From a virus: DNA of 37,460 bases. The position numbers and the translations under genes were made by a program. The stretch spans positions 1 through 37,460 of the IMG/VR virus record IMGVR_UViG_3300021952_000482; one strand, written 5' to 3'. The notes below the pieces were generated by a model. It saw nothing but the letters and a program-made list of their open reading frames with translations, did no database searches and was not told the origin of the DNA. Below, in pieces: positions 31,868-36,696 of this stretch (positions are counted from its first letter, which is position 1; each line of letters starts with the position of its first letter).

Positions 31868-33058
31868 ATGGCCGAGACCGTCAACGTCTCAAGCTCGCCG
31901 GGGGCCAATTACACCTGGACCTCTGGCAAGTTTGCATGGAGCAGCGCCACAGCCGGTAAGAACTGGACGAGTGCCTATCCGGCGGTCTACAGCCTGAGCG
32001 TGGCCACGGACATCAGTTTCACGGAGTTGATCCAGAAGCTGGGAATCAAGCGAAGCTCCGAAACCATTGCCTTTGCTGAGAAGCAAGGCAAAGGGCTGGT
32101 ACTGAACAAGTTCGAGGTCATGAGTTTTGCCGAGACCTACACGGACCTCATTGCTTTTGTTCTGAGGTTTGTTGAGTCCTTTGCGTTGGCTGAAAAGAAC
32201 GGGCTTTCCAACACCAAGCGGGTGTTCGAGGTGTTTCAGGTGGCCGAGGGGTTGGCGCGACAGATTGCATTGCGAAAGTTCGAGACGCTGGCGCTGGCTG
32301 AGACCTACACCGACCTCATTGCATTCATCTTGCGCGTGGGCGAAAGCTTCAGCTTTGTCGAGACACCATCAAAGGCGCTCACCAAGCCACAGGCAGAGAC
32401 TTTCAGGTTCACTGAGTCGCTGTCCAGGTCGCAGGTCAAACGGATCTCCGAGACGTTTGTGTTCGCTGAGTTTTTTGGACGGACCGTAGCCTATCGAAAA
32501 GCGATCAGCGAAGGGTTTGCGATTGGGGAGTCGCTGCGTCGTGCGCAGACCTTGAAGCTGGCCGAGGCCTTGAGCCTTGCTGAGCAATACAGAAGGCGAG
32601 CAAACGGTGTCATCAGCGACATGATCGTTGCAAGCACAGAGATCACCGAGCAGGACTTCATTGACATCCTGGAGTCTGGCCATCCTCCGGGGTACACCAA
32701 TTTCCGGGACTTCATTCAGGGCGACTACACCTACCAGCGGGCGCTGTTCAGGGCGATTTTGACCTCCAGCAATGCTGATCGGGGCTACATCGATGGTCTG
32801 CGCGTCACGGTGGATGTGCCCGATGTCTTTGACCGTGGCACTGCCCAGGTGAGCAATGCGGCCAATGGCGTGACGGTTGTCTTTTCCCGGCAGTTTCGTG
32901 TCTCGCCAGAGGTCACGCTCACCTTCAAGGGGGGCACCACTGTGGCCGTCCCCCGAATCCTGGGCACGGTATCCACCACAGGTTTCACCGCAGTTCTTGA
33001 AAACACCTCCGGCACCCGGGTCACAGGGGCCATTTCTTGGGTTGCACAAGGGTATTAA
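31868..33058 (+). CDS. Fibre-region protein with regular glutamate-anchored repeats
   Basis: The 396-aa protein has no named family I recognise. Its N-terminal 45 residues resemble a virion-attachment segment (TWTSGKFAWSSATAGKNW). From about residue 47 to 247 it contains ten copies of E-x5-E with the pattern E-[ST]-[FL]-x-[FL]-A-E. The second Glu falls at 53 (partial unit), 71, 89, 109, 127, 145, 165, 183, 201, 221 and 239, so spacing cycles 18-18-20. A strand-rich C-terminal domain follows (FRDFIQGDYTYQRALF, VTLTFKGGTTVAVPR). It is probably a structural shaft with a tip domain. It abuts the next fibre gene exactly. Confidence 0.8.
   Translation: MAETVNVSSSPGANYTWTSGKFAWSSATAGKNWTSAYPAVYSLSVATDISFTELIQKLGIKRSSETIAFAEKQGKGLVLNKFEVMSFAETYTDLIAFVLRFVESFALAEKNGLSNTKRVFEVFQVAEGLARQIALRKFETLALAETYTDLIAFILRVGESFSFVETPSKALTKPQAETFRFTESLSRSQVKRISETFVFAEFFGRTVAYRKAISEGFAIGESLRRAQTLKLAEALSLAEQYRRRANGVISDMIVASTEITEQDFIDILESGHPPGYTNFRDFIQGDYTYQRALFRAILTSSNADRGYIDGLRVTVDVPDVFDRGTAQVSNAANGVTVVFSRQFRVSPEVTLTFKGGTTVAVPRILGTVSTTGFTAVLENTSGTRVTGAISWVAQGY
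32006..32608 (+). repeat. Coding repeats with 168-base super-period
   Basis: The segment encoding residues 47-247 of the preceding protein repeats every 54, 54 and 60 bases. This makes a 168-base (56-residue) super-repeat; for example the residues AETYTDLIAF recur exactly one super-period apart (from A88 and from A144). Such a pattern is subject to recombination and can change the shaft length. Confidence 0.85.
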
Positions 33059-33982
33059 ATGCAAAACTACACCGAAATTCCATCGTCAACGACGCTGTCG
33101 GATTCGTTGTCTCAGATCCTGAACAACGACAAGACAGCGCTCTCGCTCTCAAGCGGAACGTCTTTCCCGACGGTCAACTTGCAACTTGGCATGCCTTGCT
33201 TCAGGACAGACGAGCAAAAGCTCTACATCCTCACGGTGGTCAGTCCTGCTTCTTGGAAGATGGTCATTGACCTCTCCGCCACAGTTGGCAAGGTGGCCAA
33301 TGCGGACCTGCTCGATGGCATTGATTCCACTGGGTTCGCTTTGGCGGGTCACAACCATGACGCGGCATATGCCGCGCTGGGCCATAACCACAATGCCGCC
33401 TACCTGGGCATCACGGCCAAGGCTGCCGATGCTGACAAGCTCGATGGCTATGACTCGACAGCCTTTGTGCGATCGGTCAACGGGTACGGTCCGGATGCCA
33501 ATGGCAATTCCAGTGTGCCTATTGATCTTTCGAGCCGTGTGGCCAAGTCTGGCGACACCATGACTGGCACCCTCACGGCGCCCAGGCTGCAAATTGCAGG
33601 AACGGCCAACTATCTGGACATGGTCGATCAGGACTGGGGGACTCGCTACCTACATCACAACCAGGGACTCATGGGATTTTTGAAATCCGATGGCAACTGG
33701 GACATGTACATGAACAACAGTGGTCAGATGTGGACAGCCAATTACGGATGGCTACACGACTACTTCTTCAGCACTATCGCCAACTGTTTCATCGGCAACT
33801 GCCCGGGTAACACGGGCAATTGCAGCCCAGTAGGCAACAACGCGACTTCTGTGGTTTCGAACTGCGGTAGCGCATCTTTTGTCCGAGATGAACTGGTGGA
33901 CAACGGCAGCCAGATTGCTGTCCGAAGAACCCAATACAACTTCAATTGCAACTGCAACTGCAATTGCGATTGCTATTGCTGA
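33059..33982 (+). CDS. Tail fibre with Asn-Cys-rich C-terminus, likely substrate of a maturation system
   Basis: The 307-aa protein is a short tail fibre. Typical fibre signatures are LAGHNHDAAY and LGHNHNAAYLG (about 95-116) and KSGDTMTGTLTAPRL (163-177). Past residue 240 it becomes Cys-rich, with C243, C248, C255 and C269, each after Asn, then C297, C299, C301, C303, C305 and C307 at the end. Eight of these ten Cys follow Asn; the last two follow Asp and Tyr. Cys is the final residue. The next three genes, 13 bases away, encode an oxygenase-like protein, an unknown and a radical SAM/SPASM enzyme. I infer the Cys/Asn segment is modified after translation. Metal binding or cross-linking are alternatives. 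Confidence 0.88.
   Translation: MQNYTEIPSSTTLSDSLSQILNNDKTALSLSSGTSFPTVNLQLGMPCFRTDEQKLYILTVVSPASWKMVIDLSATVGKVANADLLDGIDSTGFALAGHNHDAAYAALGHNHNAAYLGITAKAADADKLDGYDSTAFVRSVNGYGPDANGNSSVPIDLSSRVAKSGDTMTGTLTAPRLQIAGTANYLDMVDQDWGTRYLHHNQGLMGFLKSDGNWDMYMNNSGQMWTANYGWLHDYFFSTIANCFIGNCPGNTGNCSPVGNNATSVVSNCGSASFVRDELVDNGSQIAVRRTQYNFNCNCNCNCDCYC
33944..33979 (+). repeat. Six hexanucleotide repeats ending in TGC at the fibre 3' end
   Basis: Six six-base units each end in TGC (Cys): four start with AAT or AAC, one with GAT and one with TAT. They encode the alternating Asn/Asp/Tyr-Cys tail and run directly into the stop codon TGA. Such a repeat could gain or lose units by slippage, changing the number of Cys residues. 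Confidence 0.9.
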
Positions 33983-33995
33983 TCCAGGATAAACC

Positions 33996-34574
33996 ATGAA
34001 CTCTTTGAACAACATCTTCCCGGCTCCGGTTCTTCGCATCCAGGGGCTTTTGAGTCCCGCCGAGGTGGAGCTGGCGACTGAGCTTGCAACCAAGGCTAAC
34101 GAGCGCCTGAATGACCATCAGGTCCCGTACTCCCGAACTTACCGTGACAGCCTGGACTTCATGTTCCCGGAGTTCTTCAAGCCCATCTTCCGACGCTTGC
34201 GCCGCAGCATCGAGGACGAGTTCAAGTGCAACGTCAGCAACATGGTGGGACGCGAATCCATTTTTCGCTACGGCCAGCATCTGCCATTCCATACTGAGCC
34301 GCACGCTGATATTTCTTGCGTGCTGTGGCTGGACTTCCCCGCAAAGCCCGACCCATCCAGGCGCGACTACTCGGGCATGTTCTGCCTGCATAACCCGCAT
34401 CTCTTGTTTGGTGGCCGCGCAACAGGGGTGTTTGGCAATATCAACCACATGGAAATGCCATCGCCTGGTGATGCCTTCGTTTTCCCTTCTCACATGCCGC
34501 ACTTTGTGTTCCCGTACAACGGCGAGCGCCCTGGCGTGGAACTTCACTTTGAAATGCTTGCGGAGGCTGCATGA
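33996..34574 (+). CDS. 2OG-Fe(II) oxygenase-like protein
   Basis: The 192-aa protein resembles the small putative 2-oxoglutarate/Fe(II) oxygenase group. HTEPHADISCVLWLDFP (99-115) gives an H-x-D pair (H103, D105). FPSHMPHFVFPYNGERPG (163-180) gives the distal histidine (H169, or H166) and the Arg that binds 2-oxoglutarate (R178). The double-stranded beta-helix order is right. Such enzymes hydroxylate amino acid side chains or small molecules. It follows the Cys-rich fibre by 13 bases and overlaps the next gene by four. The fibre's Asn, Asp or Tyr residues are attractive substrates, as Asn/Asp hydroxylation is known for this superfamily; this is inference. Confidence 0.72.
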   Translation: MNSLNNIFPAPVLRIQGLLSPAEVELATELATKANERLNDHQVPYSRTYRDSLDFMFPEFFKPIFRRLRRSIEDEFKCNVSNMVGRESIFRYGQHLPFHTEPHADISCVLWLDFPAKPDPSRRDYSGMFCLHNPHLLFGGRATGVFGNINHMEMPSPGDAFVFPSHMPHFVFPYNGERPGVELHFEMLAEAA

Positions 34575-35266
34575 AGCTCGTTACCTTCAATGCCAGCGTC
34601 GATGAAGAAAAGGCTGTGCGTGTAGATCAAACTGCTGAAGGCTACACCGTCTCATTTGCTGGCGCATCCATCAACATTGACGTACAACTTTTTAAGCAGG
34701 GCGAGCTGCAGTTCCTGATGTATGGCAAGCAGTATCAGAGCGAAGTCATCGGAATCGTGTCTCAGCGCGAATATGTAGACAGCCGCGATGGCCTGACGAT
34801 CCTGGCTCAACACGGCCTGACAGATGGCCTCGGCTGGTTTTACTTCGGCGAAACCACCGAAGAGGCCTGTCTATGCATTACCAAGGCCATGGCGGCTCAG
34901 TGCCCCTTCGACATCGTGCAGCCGGGCAAGCCTCGTGATGTTCTGCCAGGTATCTTCCCCGACAGCGAAAGGCTGGGGGTTCGCAACCTGGCCAAGATCG
35001 CGCTGCTGCGCAAGCTCAACCCGCTCGACAGCCTCGCCGCCCTGGAAAAGCAGGTCGACTTGCTCAGCTCCCTGGTCATCCAACTGGCCAACCTGGTGCC
35101 AGGCCACGAGGGCATTGCCCTTGTCGACCACCTCAAGCACATCATCACCGATGCCAGCGCAAACGCAGGCAAGAGCGACGAGCATACCGTCGCCAGCGTG
35201 ATGTCTTTCAAGATGGCGCTGCGCCAGGCGCAGGCCGATTACTTCGCTGCACGCGACGGAGCCTAA
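34571..35266 (+). CDS. Unknown protein in the fibre-modification operon
   Basis: I do not recognise this 231-aa protein. Residues 1-95 look strand-rich (KLVTFNASVDEEKAVRV, then YTVSFAGASINIDVQLF, and GWFYFGE further on), and the C-terminal 110 residues look helical, with DSLAALEKQVDLLSSLVIQL. No catalytic motif is visible. It overlaps the oxygenase gene by four bases, and its stop codon overlaps the radical SAM start by one base, so all three are probably made together. It may bind the fibre substrate, like a peptide-recognition or chaperone subunit, or modify it. This is speculation based on position. Confidence 0.8.
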   Translation: MKLVTFNASVDEEKAVRVDQTAEGYTVSFAGASINIDVQLFKQGELQFLMYGKQYQSEVIGIVSQREYVDSRDGLTILAQHGLTDGLGWFYFGETTEEACLCITKAMAAQCPFDIVQPGKPRDVLPGIFPDSERLGVRNLAKIALLRKLNPLDSLAALEKQVDLLSSLVIQLANLVPGHEGIALVDHLKHIITDASANAGKSDEHTVASVMSFKMALRQAQADYFAARDGA

Positions 35267-36633
35267 TGATGGCCAAATTCATCCTTACTGCCATTAATCC
35301 TGAAAATGGCCAACGCACCCATTTCCACTACGACAACGCAACCAGCGAGTTGACCCGCGAATCTGGTGAGCCAGTGGTTCATGCGGTCGAAGTCGCTAAA
35401 CGCGTAGAGGCTCCAGCAGTCTCCAAGCAGACACCACTGGGCAAGTCCAGCCCCCGCACCCTCAAGATCAGCCTGGGCCTGTCTTGCAACTACGAGTGCG
35501 AATACTGCTCTCAGCGCTTCGTGCCGCGCGCGGTCGAAACCAACCCGGGCGATGTGCAGGCCTTCATCGATGGCCTCGACGCCTGGGTGACGAGCCCGCC
35601 CGAGAAGGTCGAGTTCTGGGGTGGCGAGCCTCTGGTCTACATCAAGACCATGCGCCCCCTGGCCGAGGCCATCAAGGCCAAGTTCCCCAAAGCAGATCTG
35701 TCGGTCATCACCAACGGCTCGCTGCTGAGCGATGACATCAACGAATGGCTTGATCGCATGGGCTTCAATGTCGGAATCTCGCACGATGGCCCAGGCCAGC
35801 ATGTGCGCGGCCCCGACCCCCTGAAGGATTCGCAGCAGCGCGCCGCCATCATGGCGCTTTACACCCGTCTGGCCCCGCAACGGCGCATCAGCTTCAATGC
35901 GATGGTCAATCGCGAGAACGTATCGCGCGCAGCTATCCAGCGCTTTTTTATCGAGCTGACTGGCGACCACATGGTCCCCATCGGCGAGGGTAGCTTTGTT
36001 GATGCCTATGACGAGGGTGGCATTGCTCACTCGCTTCAGCCAGATGAGCTGCACGCCTACCGCAATCTTGCCTTCCACGAAATCCGTACTGGCCAGGCCG
36101 CTAACGTCCAGGCCGTGAGTAGCAAGACGGCCAGCTTCGTCAATTCCATCCGTAGTCGTCGTCCTGCTTCCAGCCTGGGCCAGAAGTGCGGCATGGACAA
36201 GTCCGACAGCATCGCAGTCGACCTGCGCGGCAACGTCCTGACCTGCCAGAACGTGAGTGCAGCCAGCACCGCTCCCAATGGCCAGGCTCACCGCATTGGA
36301 CATGTATCCGACCTGACCGCTGTCAAGCTCGACACTGCCACGCATTGGAGTAAGAGGGGGGACTGCCCGAACTGCCCGATGTTGCAGATTTGCCAAGGCT
36401 CCTGCATGTTCCTGGAAGGCCCCCTGTGGGACCGGTCCTGCGAAAACGCCTTCTCTGACGCTGTACCGATCTTCGCCGCTGGCTTCGAGTTCTTGACTGG
36501 CTTGGTACCGATCTATATCGACGGTCCCCAGCGCGATGATCGAAAGGACATTTTCGGATTTCTGCGCTCGGATCAGGGGAATGCCGTCAGCCCCTCTGCG
36601 AAACGATTTCCTATCCGAGTTGTCGCCGCATAA
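35266..36633 (+). CDS. Radical SAM/SPASM enzyme, probable fibre maturase
   Basis: The 455-aa protein has the radical SAM cluster motif CNYECEYC (C74, C78, C81), then FWGGEP (118-122) and the TIM-barrel segments VITNGSLLS and VGISHDGPG. The C-terminal SPASM domain shows C308, the GNVLTC (G322-C327) pattern, then C367, C370, C376, C380 and C392, the usual ligands for two auxiliary Fe-S clusters. SPASM enzymes of this type mature peptides, making thioether or other bonds at Cys or other residues. An N-terminal extension of about 65 residues may be for substrate binding. It ends the operon that begins with the Cys-rich fibre, so the fibre is the natural candidate substrate. Confidence 0.93.
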   Translation: MMAKFILTAINPENGQRTHFHYDNATSELTRESGEPVVHAVEVAKRVEAPAVSKQTPLGKSSPRTLKISLGLSCNYECEYCSQRFVPRAVETNPGDVQAFIDGLDAWVTSPPEKVEFWGGEPLVYIKTMRPLAEAIKAKFPKADLSVITNGSLLSDDINEWLDRMGFNVGISHDGPGQHVRGPDPLKDSQQRAAIMALYTRLAPQRRISFNAMVNRENVSRAAIQRFFIELTGDHMVPIGEGSFVDAYDEGGIAHSLQPDELHAYRNLAFHEIRTGQAANVQAVSSKTASFVNSIRSRRPASSLGQKCGMDKSDSIAVDLRGNVLTCQNVSAASTAPNGQAHRIGHVSDLTAVKLDTATHWSKRGDCPNCPMLQICQGSCMFLEGPLWDRSCENAFSDAVPIFAAGFEFLTGLVPIYIDGPQRDDRKDIFGFLRSDQGNAVSPSAKRFPIRVVAA

Positions 36634-36651
36634 GAGGAACCTTTCCGTTTG

Positions 36652-36686
36652 GCCCGCCTGGCTTTGCCAGTGCGGGCTATTTTTTT
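36652..36686 (+). terminator. Hairpin with T-tract after the radical SAM gene
   Basis: GCCCGC-CTGGC (36652-36662) pairs with GCCAG (36666-36670) and, after a one-base bulge, GCGGGC (36672-36677) around a TTT loop. A T-tract follows to 36686, and GGAG of the next gene's ribosome-binding site begins at 36687. It is a strong terminator shape that ends the fibre/maturation transcript or acts as a switch before the holin genes. Confidence 0.88.
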
Positions 36687-36696
36687 GGAGATCAAT

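Follow-up and report, generated by a model that had tools for sequence, protein, structure and literature searches.

The gene at 33996-34574 (+ strand) of the window, by which we mean the whole stretch of 37,460 nucleotides of viral record IMGVR_UViG_3300021952_000482, probably encodes an Fe(II) oxygenase that is dedicated to a phage cassette and would chemically modify the C-terminal (Asn-Cys)n tail, or NC tail, of a tail fibre. Since the oxygenase travels with a radical SAM enzyme and an NC-tailed fibre across many phages, we think it very probable that the phage rebuilds the chemistry of its own fibre tip.

The window carries a lambda-like tail module with a tape measure protein, minor tail proteins, a tail assembly protein and a J-type host-specificity protein, followed by fibre genes. 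Among the latter is a fibre-like protein (31868-33058) with a weak C-terminal match to the H-type lectin domain (PF09458, 0.0032). The probable substrate is a short tail fibre of 307 aa (33059-33982, + strand), which matches phrog_8443 (tail fiber, 2.9e-6) and has NC-tailed relatives in most of the cassette loci. The first-pass annotation had described a fibre end with Asn and Asp residues between cysteines, and we see that the product of this gene indeed ends in NFNCNCNCNCDCYC. Judged from the sequence and its relatives, the NC tail comprises residues 296-307, NCNCNCNCDCYC (33944-33979, + strand); its Asp304, encoded by GAT at 33968-33970, stands between Cys303 and Cys305. In 104 distinct tails, 70% of the xC units have N in the x position, 10% have D and 10% have A.

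The fibre gene has a dN/dS of 0.01-0.13, and from phage to phage the Asn codons of the tail show synonymous differences that leave the protein tail the same. For the oxygenase we found a dN/dS of 0.04-0.10, with dS up to 1.2 (7 ortholog pairs); it is a functional gene under strong purifying selection. Taken together, the low dN/dS of the oxygenase and the synonymous variation in the Asn codons show a constrained protein and not a repeat artefact.

The oxygenase gene begins 13 bp after the end of the fibre gene, with an ATG start codon and an AGGA before it. Its product of 192 aa matches PF13759 (2OG-FeII_Oxy_5) with E = 1.3e-4 and 22.7 bits, which is under the Pfam cutoff of 27 bits, and phrog_81 (2OG-Fe(II) oxygenase) in PHROGs with E = 3.6e-11. 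Individually, 28 of 38 relatives match PF13759 (E <= 0.01; best 4.5e-10), and a profile of the 38 finds the solved structures 3bvc (2e-8) and 2rg4 (2e-7) over approximately 200 positions, that is, nearly the full length. This profile match points indirectly to a double-stranded beta-helix fold. By these comparisons the protein appears to be a divergent PF13759-type Fe(II)/2OG oxygenase, which would extend an established superfamily by one more member. It shares with 3bvc, 2rg4 and phrog_81 the two invariant histidines at the expected places and the order of the motifs; on the other hand, the two structures, which were deposited as uncharacterised proteins, have HxH where the window-type oxygenases have HxE, and the window-type enzymes, unlike PF13759 at large, are specific to NC-tail cassettes.

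The iron site had initially been predicted as H103, D105, H169 and R178. The HxD/E...H metal triad is present, in part at other positions. H99 and H169 (the latter at 34500-34502, + strand) are invariant across the 38 relatives, and H99, E101 and H169 are unchanged in all 11 window-type proteins, that is, in the closest lineages. We therefore take H99-T-E101 (34290-34298, + strand) to provide the predicted iron ligands 1 and 2, and H169 the predicted ligand 3. In the wider family, the middle ligand position is occupied by E, D or H. As ligands, H103 and D105 had to be given up, since H103 is confined to the closest copies and D105 is present in 5 of 11. At R178, the candidate 2OG anchor, 8 of the 11 window-type oxygenases have R, 2 have K and 1 has T; R47 and R86 are invariant and are alternative candidates for this role. 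That the canonical 2OG-anchoring Arg is not invariant counts against the explanation we favour.

Downstream, ATGA-type overlaps, which indicate translational coupling, join the oxygenase gene to a gene for a 231 aa protein (34571-35266, + strand) and the latter to a radical SAM gene (35266-36633, + strand). The 231 aa protein has a conserved helix, NPxDSxAALEKQVDLLTxLV, and no assigned family: it had no match in Pfam, PHROGs or PDB. In most other cassettes it is replaced by an unrelated Ig-like protein of approximately 270 aa, and profiles of the two proteins gave no usable PDB match. The radical SAM/SPASM protein (455 aa) has the CxxxCxxC motif and the SPASM cysteines, with the invariant residues Cys74/78/81 and Cys308/327/367/370/376/380/392. 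It matches PF04055 (9.8e-8) and the SPASM model TIGR04085 (8.5e-8) above cutoff, as well as phrog_1802 (1.5e-61) in PHROGs. The cassette ends at a strong intrinsic terminator (36650-36687, + strand), in which a hairpin of -24.2 kcal/mol (z -3.9) precedes a run of T7; a promoter scan found no promoter.

The first-pass annotation had named co-occurrence of the oxygenase with the fibre ending as one of the observations on which its reading should stand or fall. Counted on metagenomic contigs, which are unevenly sampled, this co-occurrence was found from three starting points. Starting from relatives of the radical SAM gene in viral contigs, 70 of 80 loci had an upstream gene with CxCxC at the end of its product, almost without exception as Asn-Cys repeats; an iterated profile detected the oxygenase family in 58 of these 80 loci, where its gene mostly stands immediately ahead of that for the radical SAM enzyme. 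The motif-first search used a DNA pattern for (Asn-Cys)4, which is blind to enzymes, and gave 102 in-frame loci, with a same-strand radical SAM gene at 75 and the oxygenase at 37. The loci without a radical SAM gene have less than 6 kb of downstream DNA, except for one (L188), which is a chance ORF of 46 aa. Thus, when every locus with a radical SAM gene was included among the assessable ones, no convincing NC tail with at least 6 kb of downstream DNA and without a radical SAM gene was found among the 102 loci. Finally, starting from the oxygenase, 59 of the 62 relatives at E <= 1e-11 lie beside an NC tail and the other three are cut by contig ends, while an NC tail was found for 0 of 12 weaker relatives.

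The gene order varies, for example tail, oxygenase, middle gene and radical SAM in the window and tail, Ig-like, oxygenase and radical SAM elsewhere, and the set stays together. Since the order differs between lineages, the association is more than an ancestral block that has stayed frozen. The same set is found on contigs of bacterial genomes (Limnohabitans, Comamonadaceae, Rhodobacteraceae and others). In the one bacterial locus that was checked in detail (L233), the cassette lies in a phage tail module, with distal tail, tail and J-type genes adjoining, and the bacterial copies with the same layout look prophage-like. Many cassettes consist of the tail and the radical SAM gene and have no oxygenase. 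In summary, the core that all cassettes have in common is the radical SAM enzyme, to which the oxygenase is a frequent but not constant addition.

The cassette also occurs in a number of other variants. Eight loci (L019, L021, L035, L041, L046, L054, L196 and L204) are without this oxygenase and have several other oxygenase-like genes, of unnamed families with HxD...H-like motifs. Profiles of two such groups of genes, A4 and A5, had no PDB match, and A4 had no Pfam match, so that their 2OG label rests on motifs only. Fatty-acid-desaturase-like genes are also seen in these cassettes (the copy in L022 matches PF00487 with 1.3e-11). A second, unrelated family of 2OG oxygenases is found at L036:5748-6326 (PF13640, 1.1e-7) and L050:6234-6818. 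Several lineages combine two oxygenases of the window's family with tails ending in CCGCC, and six loci (L104, L110, L125, L145, L208 and L257) have 2-4 radical SAM genes but lack this oxygenase family. Thalassobacter stenotrophicus CECT 5294 has four radical SAM cassette loci (L273, L274, L278 and L288); three of the four have two oxygenase matches and tails such as NCNCNCRC, and L288 is cut. Furthermore, an ATP-pyrophosphatase-like protein adjoins some cassettes (L076:5932-6993, with the motif SGGIDST; L246:11477-12682; L268:10068-11363; L108:2049-3071).

We compared the oxygenase subtype with the residues of the tail, using cassettes with one oxygenase and counting them as sequence clusters; of the underlying locus rows, 47 represent one phage lineage and are partly the same contigs twice. 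Asp or Glu in the xC slot was found in 8 of 11 clusters of the HxE/HxD type, compared with 1 of 9 of the HxH type (Fisher p = 0.0098, a value based on few independent lineages). Phylogenetically independent pairs on the radical SAM tree gave 7 for the link, 1 against and 1 tie (sign test p ~ 0.07). As evidence to the contrary, tails without Asp/Glu occur in the HVE/HTE-type loci L240, L244 and L247 and in the HKD group, and Asp is present in the tails of 24 of 54 nonredundant cassettes in which no oxygenase of the window's family was detected, some of which hold other oxygenase-like genes. The most promising candidate for the substrate of the oxygenase is the NC tail. Within it, the statistical link between subtype and Asp/Glu, which is suggestive only, gives a weak indication of Asp304 as the residue acted on and would favour Asp over Asn for the subtype found in the window.

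The mechanism that we propose has two steps. The radical SAM/SPASM enzyme would act on every NC tail as the core step, and its product would probably be sulfur-based cross-links, or oxidised cysteines or neighbouring carbons. The oxygenase would add a second modification, most likely the beta-hydroxylation of the acidic residue of an xC unit, here Asp304. The matured tail would form the distal, receptor-facing tip of the fibre, and given this location its chemistry would probably adjust stability, metal binding or adhesion. A point against this scheme is that radical SAM enzymes are sensitive to O2, which oxygenases need; the two steps would have to be kept apart or buffered.

A rather unlikely alternative is that the oxygenase acts on the cysteines or on the product of the radical SAM enzyme, by thiol oxygenation or by oxidation of a cross-linked carbon, and does not hydroxylate Asp or Asn. 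Cys is the only residue that is found in every xC unit, and the variable 2OG-anchoring Arg also fits such a reaction, as does the three-His site of the HxH-type relatives, which is typical of cupin thiol dioxygenases. In the window-type enzymes, on the other hand, the carboxylate ligand E101 is invariant, there is a tendency to pair with Asp/Glu tails, and the profile is that of 2OG-FeII_Oxy_5, with no match to a thiol dioxygenase. It is less probable still that the substrate is another cassette protein, either the one of 231 aa or the Ig-like protein found in its place: one or the other adjoins the oxygenase in most cassettes, but these two unrelated proteins are each found with and without the oxygenase, and the partner that stays the same is the NC tail. 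Least probable of all, the gene would serve auxiliary metabolism or host takeover, with host or nucleic acid substrates, and its place in the tail operon would be incidental, a reading which agrees with the filing of phrog_81, the closest phage family, under moron, auxiliary metabolic gene and host takeover, and with the distant cyanophage and other weak relatives being outside such cassettes as far as seen, but not with the confinement of the close relatives to NC-tail cassettes, whichever seed is used for the search and however the gene order is reshuffled.

Returning to the proposed hydroxylation of the NC tail, we asked which known systems it resembles. AspH and FIH are Asp/Asn beta-hydroxylases of animals, and the first-pass annotation had invoked them for a 2OG-type oxygenase acting, together with radical chemistry, on the Asn/Asp-Cys tail. 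While the association with this tail and with a radical SAM gene was borne out by the co-occurrence, the likeness to the two enzymes is an analogy only. The proposed reaction would be alike, in a bacterial virus and with the C-terminus of a fibre as its putative substrate; the window oxygenase has no TPR domain, and with no Pfam match at E <= 1 to JmjC/cupin-8 or to Asp/Asn hydroxylase families it has no detectable homology to AspH or FIH and was not assigned to them. AspH hydroxylates Asp/Asn in cysteine-rich EGF domains, for which it needs a particular disulfide pattern, and its iron is held by two His only (PMC6817910).

For the radical SAM partner, the best named match in NCBIfam is PapB, with 2.7e-15 and 56.4 bits against a cutoff of 340 bits. 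The Cys-x3-Asp/Glu spacing of PapB is absent from NCNCNCNCDCYC and is found in only 12 of the 104 distinct tails, mostly outside the xC run. PapB membership is thus ruled out both by the score and by the substrate spacing. As in PapB-type and other SPASM peptide maturases (ranthipeptides), radical SAM and SPASM domains are combined with a substrate that contains Cys and Asp; here, in contrast, the substrate would be a structural fibre without a leader peptide. The removal of a leader, as in RiPPs, does not apply to a fibre of 307 aa with the motif at its C-terminus. In some RiPP clusters (e.g. that of polytheonamide), a radical SAM enzyme and an iron oxygenase occur together, and a single ribosomal substrate is matured by two enzymes of different chemistry, as proposed here. 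The difference is that in the window the substrate would be a virion protein and the product a part of the infection machine.

In approximately 10 loci, the NC tract is not terminal and is directly followed by a self-cleaving Hint (intein/hedgehog-like) domain (L096:6844-8295, L097:6856-8298, L034, L037, L207, L255, L277, L279, L280 and L281). The isolated Achromobacter phages JWF and 2-1 are among them; the Hint assignment has Pfam support for JWF and was made by motif for the other loci. Since the domain follows the tract directly, self-cleavage would expose the NC tract as a C-terminus, and could in this way release it in these relatives. In three further loci (L109, L133 and L210) a domain other than Hint follows the tract. 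In other loci (L059, L062-L065, L067-L071 and L077-L079), the oxygenase and radical SAM genes are preceded by three tandem genes for proteins of approximately 95 aa, each with a NCNCNCNC-type tail, and the three proteins may form a hetero-trimeric tip. The Hint-domain loci and the tandem NC-tailed proteins suggest that a free NC end matters, and both fit a function at the tip.

More generally, it could be that in tailed phages a radical SAM enzyme and interchangeable oxygenases turn an (Asn-Cys)n C-terminus into a cross-linked, hydroxylated receptor-binding tip, with the oxygenase subtype fitting the tail residues, and that this is a widespread class; we put this forward tentatively, at slightly less than even chances. 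In the open-access literature, we found no description of a radical SAM or 2OG modification of a phage tail fibre, nor of the NC-tail cassette. Carriers of the cassette include the isolated Achromobacter phages JWF and 2-1, which have the radical SAM gene only, and cultured bacteria, namely Limnohabitans from freshwater and Thalassobacter from the sea. In Limnohabitans sp. 15K and 2KL-1, the prophage copies combine a window-like oxygenase with NCNCNCDCCC tails. Because isolated phages and cultured bacteria carry the cassette, the proposed remodelling of the fibre tip is readily testable by mass spectrometry. If true, a substrate would be assigned to dozens of unannotated phage enzymes, and phage host recognition would gain a new layer, in which a radical SAM enzyme and an iron oxygenase remodel the fibre tip.
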